In this document: positions 30,410 to 36,133 of the stretch, piece after piece
Position numbering within the stretch: the stretch's first letter is position 1
How the letters are laid out: each line of letters starts with the position of its first letter
Assembly (NCBI GenBank): GCA_003135135.1
Contig: PLDK01000003.1
Coordinates: forward strand, 92,739-156,738
Direction: 5' to 3'
Length of the DNA stretch: 64,000 bases
DNA from: Deltaproteobacteria bacterium
GTDB taxonomy: Bacteria; Desulfobacterota; Binatia; Binatales; Binataceae
Program-made: the position numbers and the translations under genes
The notes under the pieces: generated by a model
The model's input: only the letters and a program-made list of their open reading frames with translations
Told to the model about the DNA's origin: nothing
Databases searched by the model: none

Positions 30410-30410
<1 letters not shown>
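30383..30410. repeat. REP-like palindromic element abutting the uvrB stop
   Basis: GGGTGCAGGGG...CCCCTGC, with the perfect 17-bp palindrome at 30394-30410. Its last base is the first base (on the + strand) of the uvrB stop complement CTA (30410-30412). It lies between the convergent beta-propeller gene and uvrB, and may act as a bidirectional 3'-end hairpin. Confidence 0.8.
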
Positions 30411-32677
<2,267 letters not shown>

Positions 32678-32927: not shown

Positions 32928-33644
32928 ATGAGACTGAAATCAAGGCTTTTAAATGCGGTCGCTGGCATCGCGTGTGCGGCGCTAATCGCGTCCAGTTTGG
33001 GCGGTTGCGCAAATTTGCAGAAGCCCCGCTCGTGGGGAACCTGCGCGATCGTCGGAGGACTGCTTGGCGCAGGCGTCGGCGCAGCCTCAGGCATTGTCAT
33101 CGCTGACAATACCGCGGGACGTCACCACAGCGACCAGGATACCAGGGTTTACGCCGGTGTGGGTGGCGCAGTCGTCGGCGCGGGACTCGGCGCGTTGGCA
33201 GGCCACTACCTCTGCGATCCGCTGATTCCGCCGCCGCCACCTCCTCCGCCGCCACCTCCTCCTTCGCCGCCGCCACCGCCACCGCCGCCTCCGCCTCCGG
33301 TCAAGGAGAAGCTGGTGCTCCGCGGTGTGCATTTCGACTTCAACAAGTCGGTGATCCGCCCGGGTGATGCCGCCGTTCTGGATGAAGCCGCATCAACTCT
33401 TAAGGCCAATCCGAACGTGACGATCAACGTCAACGGCTACTGCGACGCGATCGGCAGCGACGAATACAACTTGAAGCTGTCCGATCGACGTTCAGACGCC
33501 GTGGTGGATTACCTCGTGAAAGCCGGAATCCCGTCGAGCCAGTTGGTTCCGCACGGGTACGGCAAGACCGACTTCGTTGCCACCAACGACACGGATGAGG
33601 GTCGCGCTCAGAACCGCCGCGTCGAACTGGTGCCCAATCAATAA
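32928..33644 (+). CDS. OmpA-family lipoprotein with polyproline linker, copy 1
   Basis: 238 residues from the ATG at 32928, preceded by GAGGAGG. The N-terminus is a lipoprotein signal (IACAALIASSLGGC). Two glycine-zipper segments (VGGLLGAGVGAASG, GGAVVGAGLGALAG) follow, then a linker of 12 Pro, one Ser and 11 Pro. The C-terminal OmpA domain starts at LVLRGVHFDFNKSVIRPGD and contains NGYCDAIGSDEYNLKLSDRRSDAV, with the Asp and Arg that bind diaminopimelate of peptidoglycan. It probably links the outer membrane to the cell wall. First of three tandem paralogs; the OmpA domain is nearly identical at DNA level in all three while the N-terminus is distinct. Confidence 0.93.
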   Translation: MRLKSRLLNAVAGIACAALIASSLGGCANLQKPRSWGTCAIVGGLLGAGVGAASGIVIADNTAGRHHSDQDTRVYAGVGGAVVGAGLGALAGHYLCDPLIPPPPPPPPPPPPSPPPPPPPPPPPVKEKLVLRGVHFDFNKSVIRPGDAAVLDEAASTLKANPNVTINVNGYCDAIGSDEYNLKLSDRRSDAVVDYLVKAGIPSSQLVPHGYGKTDFVATNDTDEGRAQNRRVELVPNQ

Positions 33645-33669
33645 GTCGGGCCGAGACTGAATCGTCCGC

Positions 33670-33710
33670 AAGCGGCCGTAGTCCCGTCGGGGGCTGCGGC
33701 CGCTTCTTTA
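33670..33710 (+). terminator. Intrinsic-type terminator after OmpA-family copy 1
   Basis: AAGCGGCCG pairs with CGGCCGCTT around a partly paired centre (TAGTCCC...GGGGCTG), followed by CTTTA. The T-run is short. The same hairpin follows copies 2 and 3. Confidence 0.75.
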
Positions 33711-33862
33711 TGTGACCAATATGTAACCAATGTAACGAATTCTCATTTATGAAGCCCGCGGAGTGCCAAAGATTAGCCTTTTCAATAGATTTGGCCTCCA
33801 CAAAATGACACAATTCGCGGTGTTTAAACCCGGAATTACTTGAAACCCAGGGAGGGGTACTC

Positions 33863-34540
33863 ATGTTTAGATGGAAAAATTGGATTGGCGCCGCGGCGAC
33901 CGTCGCTCTTTTGACGGTCTCGTCGTGCGCGTCGTGGACGCCTGAGCAAAAGGAGTACACCGAGTACGGGGCAGCCGGCGGCGCACTTCTCGGCGGAGCA
34001 CTGGGGTGCGGAGTTGCTGCGGCCGCAAGCGGTTCCCCAAAGGGCTATGAGATCGGATGTCCCACGGGTGTTGTTGGGGGCGCTTTGATTGGCGGCACGA
34101 TCGGCTACTTCCTGGCGCCGAAACCGGTGCCAGCGCCTCCACCGCCTCCTCCACCGCCGCCTCCTCCGCCACCGCCACCGCCGCCTCCGCCTCCACTCAG
34201 GCAAAAGCTGGTGCTCCGCGGTGTGCATTTCGACTTCAACAAGTCGAAGATCCGACCGGGTGATGCCGCCGTTCTGGATGAAGCCGCATCCACTCTTAAG
34301 GCCAATCCGAACGTGACGATCAACGTCAACGGCTACTGCGACGCAATCGGCGGCGAGGAATACAATTTGAAGCTGTCCGATCGACGTTCGGACGCCGTGG
34401 TGGATTACCTCGTGAAAGCCGGAATCCCGTCGAGCCAGTTGGTTCCGCACGGGTACGGCAAGACCGACTTCGTTGCCACCAACGACACGGCTGAGGGTCG
34501 CGCTCAGAACCGTCGCGTCGAACTGGTGCCCAATCAATAA
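33863..34540 (+). CDS. OmpA-family lipoprotein with polyproline linker, copy 2
   Basis: 225 residues. The signal (AAATVALLTVSSC) ends in a lipobox-like VSSC. Glycine-zipper segments (GGALLGGALGCGVAA, VGGALIGGTIGYF) precede a run of 20 consecutive Pro codons (34136-34195) and the OmpA domain (LVLRGVHFDFNKSKIRPGD; NGYCDAIGGEEYNLKLSDRRSDAV). N-terminus and upstream region match copy 3 and differ from copy 1. AGGGAGG lies about 10 bases before the ATG. Role as for copy 1: outer membrane to peptidoglycan tether. Confidence 0.93.
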   Translation: MFRWKNWIGAAATVALLTVSSCASWTPEQKEYTEYGAAGGALLGGALGCGVAAAASGSPKGYEIGCPTGVVGGALIGGTIGYFLAPKPVPAPPPPPPPPPPPPPPPPPPPPLRQKLVLRGVHFDFNKSKIRPGDAAVLDEAASTLKANPNVTINVNGYCDAIGGEEYNLKLSDRRSDAVVDYLVKAGIPSSQLVPHGYGKTDFVATNDTAEGRAQNRRVELVPNQ

Positions 34541-34565
34541 GTCGGGCCGAGACTGAATCGTCCGC

Positions 34566-34603
34566 AAGCGGCCGCAGTCCCGTCGGGGGCTGCGGCCGTT
34601 TCA
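34566..34603 (+). terminator. Intrinsic-type terminator after OmpA-family copy 2
   Basis: AAGCGGCCGCAG pairs with CTGCGGCCGTTT (one end mismatch) around TCCCGTCGGGGG. Followed by TTTCATT, a weak T-run. Confidence 0.75.
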
Positions 34604-34748
34604 TTATGTAACCAATGTAACGAATTCTCCTCATTACCACGCCCGGAGAGTGCGAAAAATTCGCCAGTTCAATAGATTTGGCTTCCCGAAAATGACAAAA
34701 TTCGCGGTGTTTAAACCCGGAATTACTTGCAGCCCAGGGAGGGTACTC

Positions 34749-35426
34749 ATGTTTAGATGGAAAAATTGGATTGGCGCCGCGGCGACCGTCGCTCTTTTGA
34801 CGGTCTCGTCGTGTGCGTCGTGGACACCCGAACAGAAAGAGTACACCGCGTATGGAGCGGCCGGCGGCGCGCTCATCGGCGGAGGGCTGGGGTGCGGAAT
34901 TGCTGCGGGGGCAAGTGGTTCCGCAGAGAGTTATGAGATCGGATGCCCCGTGGGTGTTGTTGCGGGCGCTCTGATCGGCGGCGTGAACGGCTACTTGTTG
35001 GCGCCGAAACTGGTGCCAGCGCCTCCGCCACCGCCTCCACCGCCGCCTCCTCCTCCACCGCCACCGCCGCCTCCGCCTCCAGTCAGGCAAAAGCTGGTGC
35101 TCCGCGGTGTGCATTTCGACTTCAACAAGTCGAAGATCCGACCGGGTGATGCCGCCGTTCTGGATGAAGCCGCATCCACTCTTAAGGCCAATCCGAACGT
35201 GACGATCAACGTCAACGGCTACTGCGACGCAATCGGCGGCGAGGAATACAACTTGAAGCTGTCCGATCGACGTTCGGACGCCGTGGTGGATTACTTGGTG
35301 AAGGCCGGAATCCCATCGAGCCAGTTGGTTCCGCACGGATACGGCAAGACCGACTTCGTTGCCACCAACGACACGGCTGAGGGCCGCGCTCAGAACCGCC
35401 GCGTTGAACTGGTGCCCAATCAATAA
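34749..35426 (+). CDS. OmpA-family lipoprotein with polyproline linker, copy 3
   Basis: 225 residues from the ATG at 34749; the longer frame from 34650 only covers repeated leader DNA. Same plan as copy 2: lipobox VSSC, glycine zippers (GGALIGGGLGCGIAAG, VAGALIGGVNGYL), 20 consecutive prolines (codons 35023-35082) and an OmpA domain nearly identical in DNA to copies 1 and 2. The polyproline run would need elongation factor P to be translated efficiently. Confidence 0.93.
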   Translation: MFRWKNWIGAAATVALLTVSSCASWTPEQKEYTAYGAAGGALIGGGLGCGIAAGASGSAESYEIGCPVGVVAGALIGGVNGYLLAPKLVPAPPPPPPPPPPPPPPPPPPPPVRQKLVLRGVHFDFNKSKIRPGDAAVLDEAASTLKANPNVTINVNGYCDAIGGEEYNLKLSDRRSDAVVDYLVKAGIPSSQLVPHGYGKTDFVATNDTAEGRAQNRRVELVPNQ

Positions 35427-35451
35427 GTCGGGCCGAAACTGAAACGTCCGC

Positions 35452-35495
35452 AAGCGGCCGCAGTCCCGTCGGGGGCTGTGGCCGCTTTTTTCTCT
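35452..35495 (+). terminator. Rho-independent terminator after OmpA-family copy 3
   Basis: AAGCGGCCGCAGTCCC pairs with GGGGCTGTGGCCGCTT around GTCG, followed by TTTTTTCTC. This is the strongest of the three related terminators and closes the array. Confidence 0.88.
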
Positions 35496-35554
35496 CCCGC
35501 GCCCATTCTCATGTGCTGACGGTGGTGCGTATTTTTGCTATAGAAATCATCGTT

Positions 35555-36133
35555 ATGGTGTTTATAGGAACGCTGGAAATAAGAGCCGCCGTCGCCACGC
35601 TCGCAATCACGGCGCTGTTCGCGGCGTCGCCGGCGCGGGCCCAATCGCAGGCGGCTGCACAGGCATCGCCTGCCTCGGCATCGCAAAGCGCAGCCGTTCC
35701 GGGGGCGTCCGCTTCACCAACGGCGAAGAAGAAGACGCTGAGGCAAGAGGTCAGAGCGCTGGTTACGAAATATGAGCCCGAGCGACTCAAGCGCGATCTC
35801 GAATTCAAGAAGGCCTCCGCGCTGTTCCCGGGTTTTTGCCATCATTGGGAGCAGGATTTGCACGAGCGCGAGACGAACAATCTGTCGAAATTGAAATTCA
35901 ATTTGAAAGATGGTTTCAAGACCGCGACTTACACTGCTTATGGCAAGGTCGCCGCCTGCGAATCGCATCAATCCAAGGACGGCTACTCGATCGGAAAGCT
36001 CACCTACGAGGAATTCATCTACTACCTGGTCGGCAAGTCCGAGGACGAAGCCAGGCACGCGTCGCCAAAGGCCATCAGCGATACTCGCACCACGGAAATT
36101 TTCCGCTGGGATAACGACAAGTGGTTCTACTAG
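35555..36133 (+). CDS. Hypothetical secreted protein
   Basis: Function not recognised. Starting at the ATG at 35555 gives 192 residues with a signal peptide (AAVATLAITALFAASPARAQ). A low-complexity Ala/Ser/Gln/Pro segment follows (AQSQAAAQASPASASQSAA), then a compact domain from about residue 60 with FCHHWEQDLHERE, YTAYGKVAACESHQSKDGYSIGKLTYEEFIYYLVG and a C-terminal FRWDNDKWFY. Two Cys may form a disulfide. An in-frame start at 35513 adds 14 hydrophobic residues. It ends at a bidirectional terminator facing an acyl-CoA dehydrogenase gene. Confidence 0.65.
   Translation: MVFIGTLEIRAAVATLAITALFAASPARAQSQAAAQASPASASQSAAVPGASASPTAKKKTLRQEVRALVTKYEPERLKRDLEFKKASALFPGFCHHWEQDLHERETNNLSKLKFNLKDGFKTATYTAYGKVAACESHQSKDGYSIGKLTYEEFIYYLVGKSEDEARHASPKAISDTRTTEIFRWDNDKWFY

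Follow-up and report, generated by a model that had tools for sequence, protein, structure and literature searches.

The window analysed here, a stretch of 64,000 nucleotides from a genome of 3.73 Mb (G000), carries three intact lipoprotein genes arranged head to tail, with uvrB (30410-32677, minus strand) on one side and, on the other, a gene for a secreted protein without a Pfam match (orf35513, 35513-36133), after which come two acyl-CoA dehydrogenase genes. The host is likely an uncultured soil bacterium, a species of Candidatus Binatus, given that its closest relative, Candidatus Binatus soli UBA7539 (G006, contig DLMJ01000042.1), belongs to the same genus. The three genes, all on the plus strand, are A1, or copy 1 (32928..33644, 238 amino acids), A2, or copy 2 (33863..34540, 225 amino acids), and A3, or copy 3 (34749..35426, 225 amino acids when counted from the ATG that we take as its start, the open reading frame list beginning it at an upstream GTG); the copies in G006 are referred to as B1-B3. 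The parts of A1 follow one another as signal peptide, lipobox cysteine, glycine zipper, polyproline linker and OmpA domain. The lipoboxes read LGGC in A1 and VSSC in both A2 and A3, with alanine at position +2, a residue which in lipoproteins favours sorting to the outer membrane. From the lipidated cysteine to the end of the glycine zipper, the sequence covers 33006..33206 in A1, 33926..34108 in A2 and 34812..34994 in A3, with a GxxxG pattern in the first and two predicted helices in the second. The polyproline tract encodes 12 prolines, a serine and 11 prolines in A1 (33228..33299), and 20 uninterrupted prolines in A2 (34136..34195) and in A3 (35022..35081), while the OmpA domain (PF00691) scores 83-84 bits in all three, against a curated cut-off of 27.2. 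In other words, three polyproline OmpA lipoprotein genes, with a lipobox and 20-23 prolines each, lie where the original prediction had placed them.

The first two copies of the array are spaced at a period of 896 bp and the last two at one of 886 bp, the latter agreeing with the repeat of about 886 bp expected for copies 2 and 3. Within each copy, a homogenised tract made of the 3' end of the polyproline DNA, the OmpA domain and a terminator hairpin extends over 33270..33705, 34166..34601 and 35052..35487, respectively. The DNA of OmpA domain and terminator is 94-97% identical among A1-A3, just as predicted (94-96% over a tract of 446 bp), and a 300-bp repeat of the OmpA block (D1) is 89-90% identical among all three with its divergent end counted in. 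A 36-nt terminator-like hairpin follows every copy: at 33670..33705, with 16 pairs and a weak T tail; at 34566..34601, as in copy 1, with a degraded T tail and missed by the terminator scan; and at 35452..35487, with a full T tail. This gradation suggests partial read-through after copies 1 and 2 and one strong final stop after copy 3. A sigma-70 scan of the array region found no promoter, and an Rfam search of the same region gave no match. The DNA upstream of copy 2, together with its N-terminal half (33747..34154), has a second copy at 34634-35040, before copy 3 only (repeat families D2 and D3). Next to the array, orf35513 is conserved beside OmpA genes across the family; its product carries a conserved FPxFCxxW motif, and its low-complexity linker differs greatly in length.

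The N-terminal half of copy 1 had been called unrelated to those of copies 2 and 3, which overstates the difference. Namely, the halves are 22-24% identical, and copy 1 keeps every one of the invariant glycines of the two GxxxG zippers (G36, G40 and G44, and G69, G73, G77 and G81, in the numbering of copy 2), which are retained in all 20 aligned relatives. On this alignment, the two N-termini are diverged forms of one glycine-zipper module.

How evenly is divergence spread along the genes? Synonymous divergence, calculated by the Nei-Gojobori method separately for the N-terminal and OmpA parts, amounts between A1 and A2 to approximately 1.6 in the N-terminal part versus 0.078 in the OmpA part, and between A2 and A3 to 0.33 versus 0.105, which rules out equal divergence. 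As a yardstick for the species split, the dS of flanking genes between G000 and G006 is 0.16-0.21. Among copies of the same genome, the dS of the OmpA part (0.078-0.135 in the window and 0.09-0.22 in G006) mostly lies under this species-level value, whereas the N-terminal halves show older duplications. Repeated conversion would hold the tandem copies close to identity over the last part of the polyproline DNA and onwards as far as the terminator, and the N-terminal modules would remain distinct while the wall-binding halves are converted.

The comparison with G006, which carries the triplet in one contig and with the types in the same order, places this process in time. Among the variable sites of the OmpA and terminator DNA of the two species, none groups orthologous copies: four sites are common to A2 and A3 only, five to B1 and B3 only, and three split all A from all B copies, of which one is coding and the others belong to the terminator region. 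In the AU test, every orthologous tree is rejected (p 0.0001-0.006), while the concerted tree, with all A copies apart from all B copies, is retained (p 0.25), with a phylogenetic signal that comes from only about 40 variable OmpA sites. Since the OmpA parts cluster by species and the orthologous trees are rejected, homogenisation, most probably by conversion, has gone on after speciation. What is more, synonymous sites show greater similarity among the paralogues of one species than across the two species, the pattern by which concerted evolution is recognised. The homogenised tract takes in roughly the final ten proline codons and everything beyond them up to and including the terminator hairpin, and the third bases of these codons are species-specific (A1 ...GAGAGGTGTG and A2 ...GAGAGGTGTA, versus ...TTGAGAAGTG in G006), so the polyproline DNA forms the 5' end of the tract. 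In copy 2 of G006, a TPEQ-type N-terminus is joined to a VKE junction of the copy-1 type, which looks like a further sign of exchange inside the linker. In another congener, G002, the OmpA dS between copy 1 and the fully assembled TPEQ-type copy is 0.59, that is, the two are not homogenised, and homogenisation between types is therefore a feature of the G000/G006 group.

Could the OmpA halves have become so similar in some other way? Copies 2 and 3 might simply be recent duplicates, with their OmpA identity to copy 1 going back to a single domain fusion before speciation. That copies 2 and 3 have upstream DNA and N-terminus in common, and that the array is older than the split between G000 and G006, fits such a history, but the N-terminal dS of A2 and A3 exceeds the divergence of the species while their OmpA dS falls below it, and the grouping of OmpA sites by species and not by copy, with the rejection of orthologous trees, is contrary to it as well; we consider it improbable. 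A similarly small chance is given to an assembly artefact, in which short reads would have led to OmpA domains being collapsed or interchanged between copies. Both G000 and G006 appear to be metagenome assemblies, and assemblers can jump between near-identical copies within this domain; the contigs of three congeners stop inside it, and one contig of G002 has a probable misjoin at polyproline DNA. Against this, two separately assembled species each show three distinct copies per contig, with unique spacers and private differences, and a dispersed paralogue, C46, has not been pulled into the homogenisation. The independent assembly of the second species also makes it unlikely that the array is a single gene multiplied by the assembler.

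The same paralogue bears on the suggestion that strong selection on the protein and the codons of the OmpA domain kept the copies alike without any conversion. The very low OmpA dN within G000 (0.004-0.024) would agree with it; however, the synonymous sites are near-identical too, the noncoding terminator DNA is also homogenised, with two species-specific sites, and C46, which has the same domain, is saturated at synonymous sites (OmpA dS of about 1.6 to each of A1-A3), so protein constraint or codon bias alone does not explain the identity of A1-A3. We regard this last explanation as very improbable. Unequal crossing-over at constant copy number could mimic conversion. That said, the uneven divergence along the genes and the homogenisation after speciation support gene conversion on the cell-wall-binding half, in line with the original prediction, as the probable source of a region-specific homogenisation that is itself real.

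Describing the array as a triplication does not fit its make-up, since only one of the genes is of the ancestral kind and the two others have an N-terminus of another type, TPEQ. The N-terminal type of copy 1 occurs as a single gene beside uvrB or orf35513 in many relatives. Copy number in relatives varies: the triplet recurs in G006, while outside a group of Binatus species, in G003, G004 and several other genera, the site next to uvrB holds a single gene of the copy-1 type. Copy 1, on this distribution, represents the ancestral state in Binataceae, a lone gene adjacent to uvrB. The TPEQ-type N-terminus of copies 2 and 3 forms a separate clade with 100% support in the N-terminal tree and is found in dispersed single genes of five genomes (G003, G005, G009, G016 and G033), whereas the OmpA tree groups copies 1-3 of both species and one copy of G002. 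With N-termini that go with the TPEQ clade and OmpA parts that group within the array, copies 2 and 3 are something other than simple duplicates of copy 1. The array probably arose in a common ancestor of several species of Candidatus Binatus, where a TPEQ-type gene would have landed behind the ancestral uvrB-adjacent gene and then been duplicated locally. A TPEQ-type gene follows copy 1 in G002 too. In G001, G002 and G005, contigs are interrupted or wrongly joined in the OmpA domain or in polyproline DNA, as one would expect from near-identical repeats, and copy number in these three is not readable from the broken contigs. On contig C320 of G002 (L063:1-660), a polyproline tract runs directly into a secretin-like frame, a junction that is probably a misassembly at CCN repeats.

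In all, G000 has six OmpA-domain matches: A1-A3, C46, C11 and a Pal-like gene on C44. The paralogue on C11 (L061:5000-5972) and one in G002 (contig C86, L066:4674-5567) have a different N-terminal domain, a proline-rich linker and an OmpA domain as in the array. Compared with the tandem copies, the OmpA domain of C11 differs by only approximately 10% in its 3' half, and the N-terminal domain of this paralogue gives a weak chagasin/I42 inhibitor match (E 0.016, below the cut-off). We dropped C11 as a partner in ongoing conversion, the 5' part of its OmpA domain being nearly as distant as that of other paralogues. A third N-terminal type (SDYGILRL...), combined with polyproline and an array-type OmpA domain, is present at five loci of other Binataceae (L056, L057, L099, L101 and L150), and, given this type, the family as a whole seems to swap its N-terminal modules at the linker. 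In a distant family of the class, glycine-zipper/OmpA lipoproteins occur as tandem pairs at two loci (L144 on G048:C202 and L166 on G075:C415).

What might such proteins do? In the structure model of copy 2, which is only of moderate quality (pLDDT 71.5, pTM 0.41), two helices of membrane-spanning length are predicted at residues 27-55 and 59-84, and the nearest solved structures are the wall-binding domains of YiaD (2k1s, a top match), OprF and Pal. The candidate wall-binding residues D160 and R175 of copy 2 are invariant in 20 aligned sequences, and we take them, by eye, to be the equivalents of the wall-binding D271 and R286 of A. baumannii OmpA. In the arrangement that we propose, the lipid and the glycine-zipper helix hairpin would keep the N-terminus in or on the outer membrane, the linker of approximately 36 residues, mostly proline, would cross the gap from the outer membrane to the wall, and the C-terminal OmpA domain would hold the peptidoglycan, the result being a set of tethers with one shared wall-binding end and differing membrane-side ends. 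By analogy with YiaD and Pal in E. coli, the products of A1-A3 are probably tethers between outer membrane and peptidoglycan that act via a polyproline rod. The account as a whole, that is, tether lipoproteins, the origin of their array and repeated conversion of its wall-binding half, is in our view quite likely correct. The linker had been predicted to span the periplasm, but the anatomy, an outer-membrane lipoprotein with a wall-binding domain, would limit the rod to the gap between outer membrane and wall. A polyproline-II helix rises by about 0.31 nm per residue, and 20-36 residues in this conformation would reach about 6-11 nm, which is the scale of this gap. A search for Braun lipoprotein Lpp (PF04728) gave no match in G000, with the E. 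coli control positive. The genome has one EF-P gene (L145, contig C41), the loop of which reads TPGNWRG, with arginine near the tip where E. coli has lysine.

Runs of at least ten CCN codons occur in five places in G000, namely in A1-A3, in C46 and in one unrelated open reading frame; this rarity, together with C46 being a fourth family member, indicates that the polyproline is not there by chance. Measured between fixed anchors, namely the last residue of the glycine zipper and the RGxHF motif with which the OmpA domain begins, the linker has a length of 36.1 +/- 2.0 residues (SD; range 30-40, n=43, nearly all from Binataceae), with 13-27 prolines and a longest run of 6-27. The counts of proline and of other residues trade off within it (r = -0.82). 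An apparent compensation between zipper and polyproline length was discarded as a boundary artefact, fixed anchors giving a positive correlation. Length is, in other words, constrained at the level of the family while the sequence varies, which lends some support to the notion of a molecular ruler. In other families of the class the linker measures 23-29, 35-37 or 40-41 residues (23-43 overall, SD 5.9), so no single length is kept and linker length is set per lineage, a result that weakens the ruler in its strict form. In another genus of the class, like proteins have 28-29 uninterrupted prolines of near-constant length (L173, L174, L176, L181 and L183).

We give about even chances to a simpler reading, in which the linker is a stiff spacer without a critical length, kept by a low rate of insertion and deletion and by shared ancestry. 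The variation among families accords with this reading, as do species differences that are often substitutions, such as serine to proline, and a tract in which the repeats are imperfect and CCC codons few, so that it is prone to little slippage. On the other hand, an SD of 2.0 across saturated divergence in Binataceae contrasts with 93 +/- 24 residues (range 39-148, n=26) for the low-complexity linker of the adjacent orf35513 in relatives of the same family, and the spacer of Pal, also a tether, is equally constrained (48.5, SD 1.7, n=20). A ruler is possible. CCC is avoided in the polyproline tracts, with none in 63 codons of A1-A3 (zero in each tract) and 4.5% in the family, whereas CCC makes up 28% of the proline codons over 27 long open reading frames of the window. 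Such avoidance would reduce slippage, and a translational cause is equally possible.

A bolder reading is that the polyproline-rod lipoproteins of Binatia are the main tethers setting the distance between outer membrane and wall, with a family-fixed length protected by CCC avoidance and with polyproline-bounded conversion giving several membrane-side modules one wall-binding end. Behind it stand linker lengths of about 36 residues in Binataceae and 40-41 in one other genus, and a G000 genome in which no Lpp was detected; we nevertheless hold it to be doubtful. Be that as it may, the array is a clear natural example, in a bacterium, of concerted evolution confined to one domain, and the dispersed paralogue serves as its internal control. 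The family, in turn, offers many naturally occurring polyproline spacers, set in length and attached to a standard wall-binding domain, from a phylum in which the biology of the envelope has hardly been studied, and with it one could test in E. coli whether a rigid rod can set the distance between outer membrane and wall.

Among known systems, the nearest named architecture is that of YiaD (NF053611), which ranks first or second among the NCBIfam matches for each of 20 members and which the array proteins resemble in lipobox, glycine zipper and OmpA domain, including their order; copies 1-3 score 121.6, 125.9 and 123.8 bits, below its cut-off of 175. They differ from it in the long polyproline linker, the tandem genes and the converted OmpA domains. 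In E. coli, YiaD, together with OmpA and Pal, becomes essential once Lpp is lengthened (PMC8824477). The PA1041 family of peptidoglycan-binding anchor lipoproteins (NF053612), likewise matched by 20 of 20 members, has the combination of outer-membrane lipoprotein and OmpA domain in common with the array, whose copies score 137.7, 115.0 and 115.6 bits against a cut-off of 250. With Pal, the linker length of which affects envelope function in E. coli (PMC12826056), the array proteins have in common the lipid anchor, a length-conserved spacer and the OmpA domain, but A1-A3 reach only 81-83 bits against the TIGR02802 cut-off of 125.35, and the Pal-like gene of G000, which ends in NRRDHF, is a separate one with a Gly/Ser/Asn-rich spacer and without a glycine zipper. 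Proline-rich, polyproline-II-like rods through the periplasm are known from TonB and the proline-rich TolA (PMC12204202); these, however, are inner-membrane energy transducers with Pro-X repeats and without a wall-binding OmpA domain. Finally, domain-limited homogenisation within a species is common to this array and known cases of concerted evolution in tandem paralogues, whereas here one end of the tract falls in polyproline-coding DNA, and the half of the protein outside the tract can diverge freely. A search of the open-licence literature found no earlier description of polyproline OmpA lipoprotein tethers; the components, in short, are of known kinds, and it is their combination that is new.
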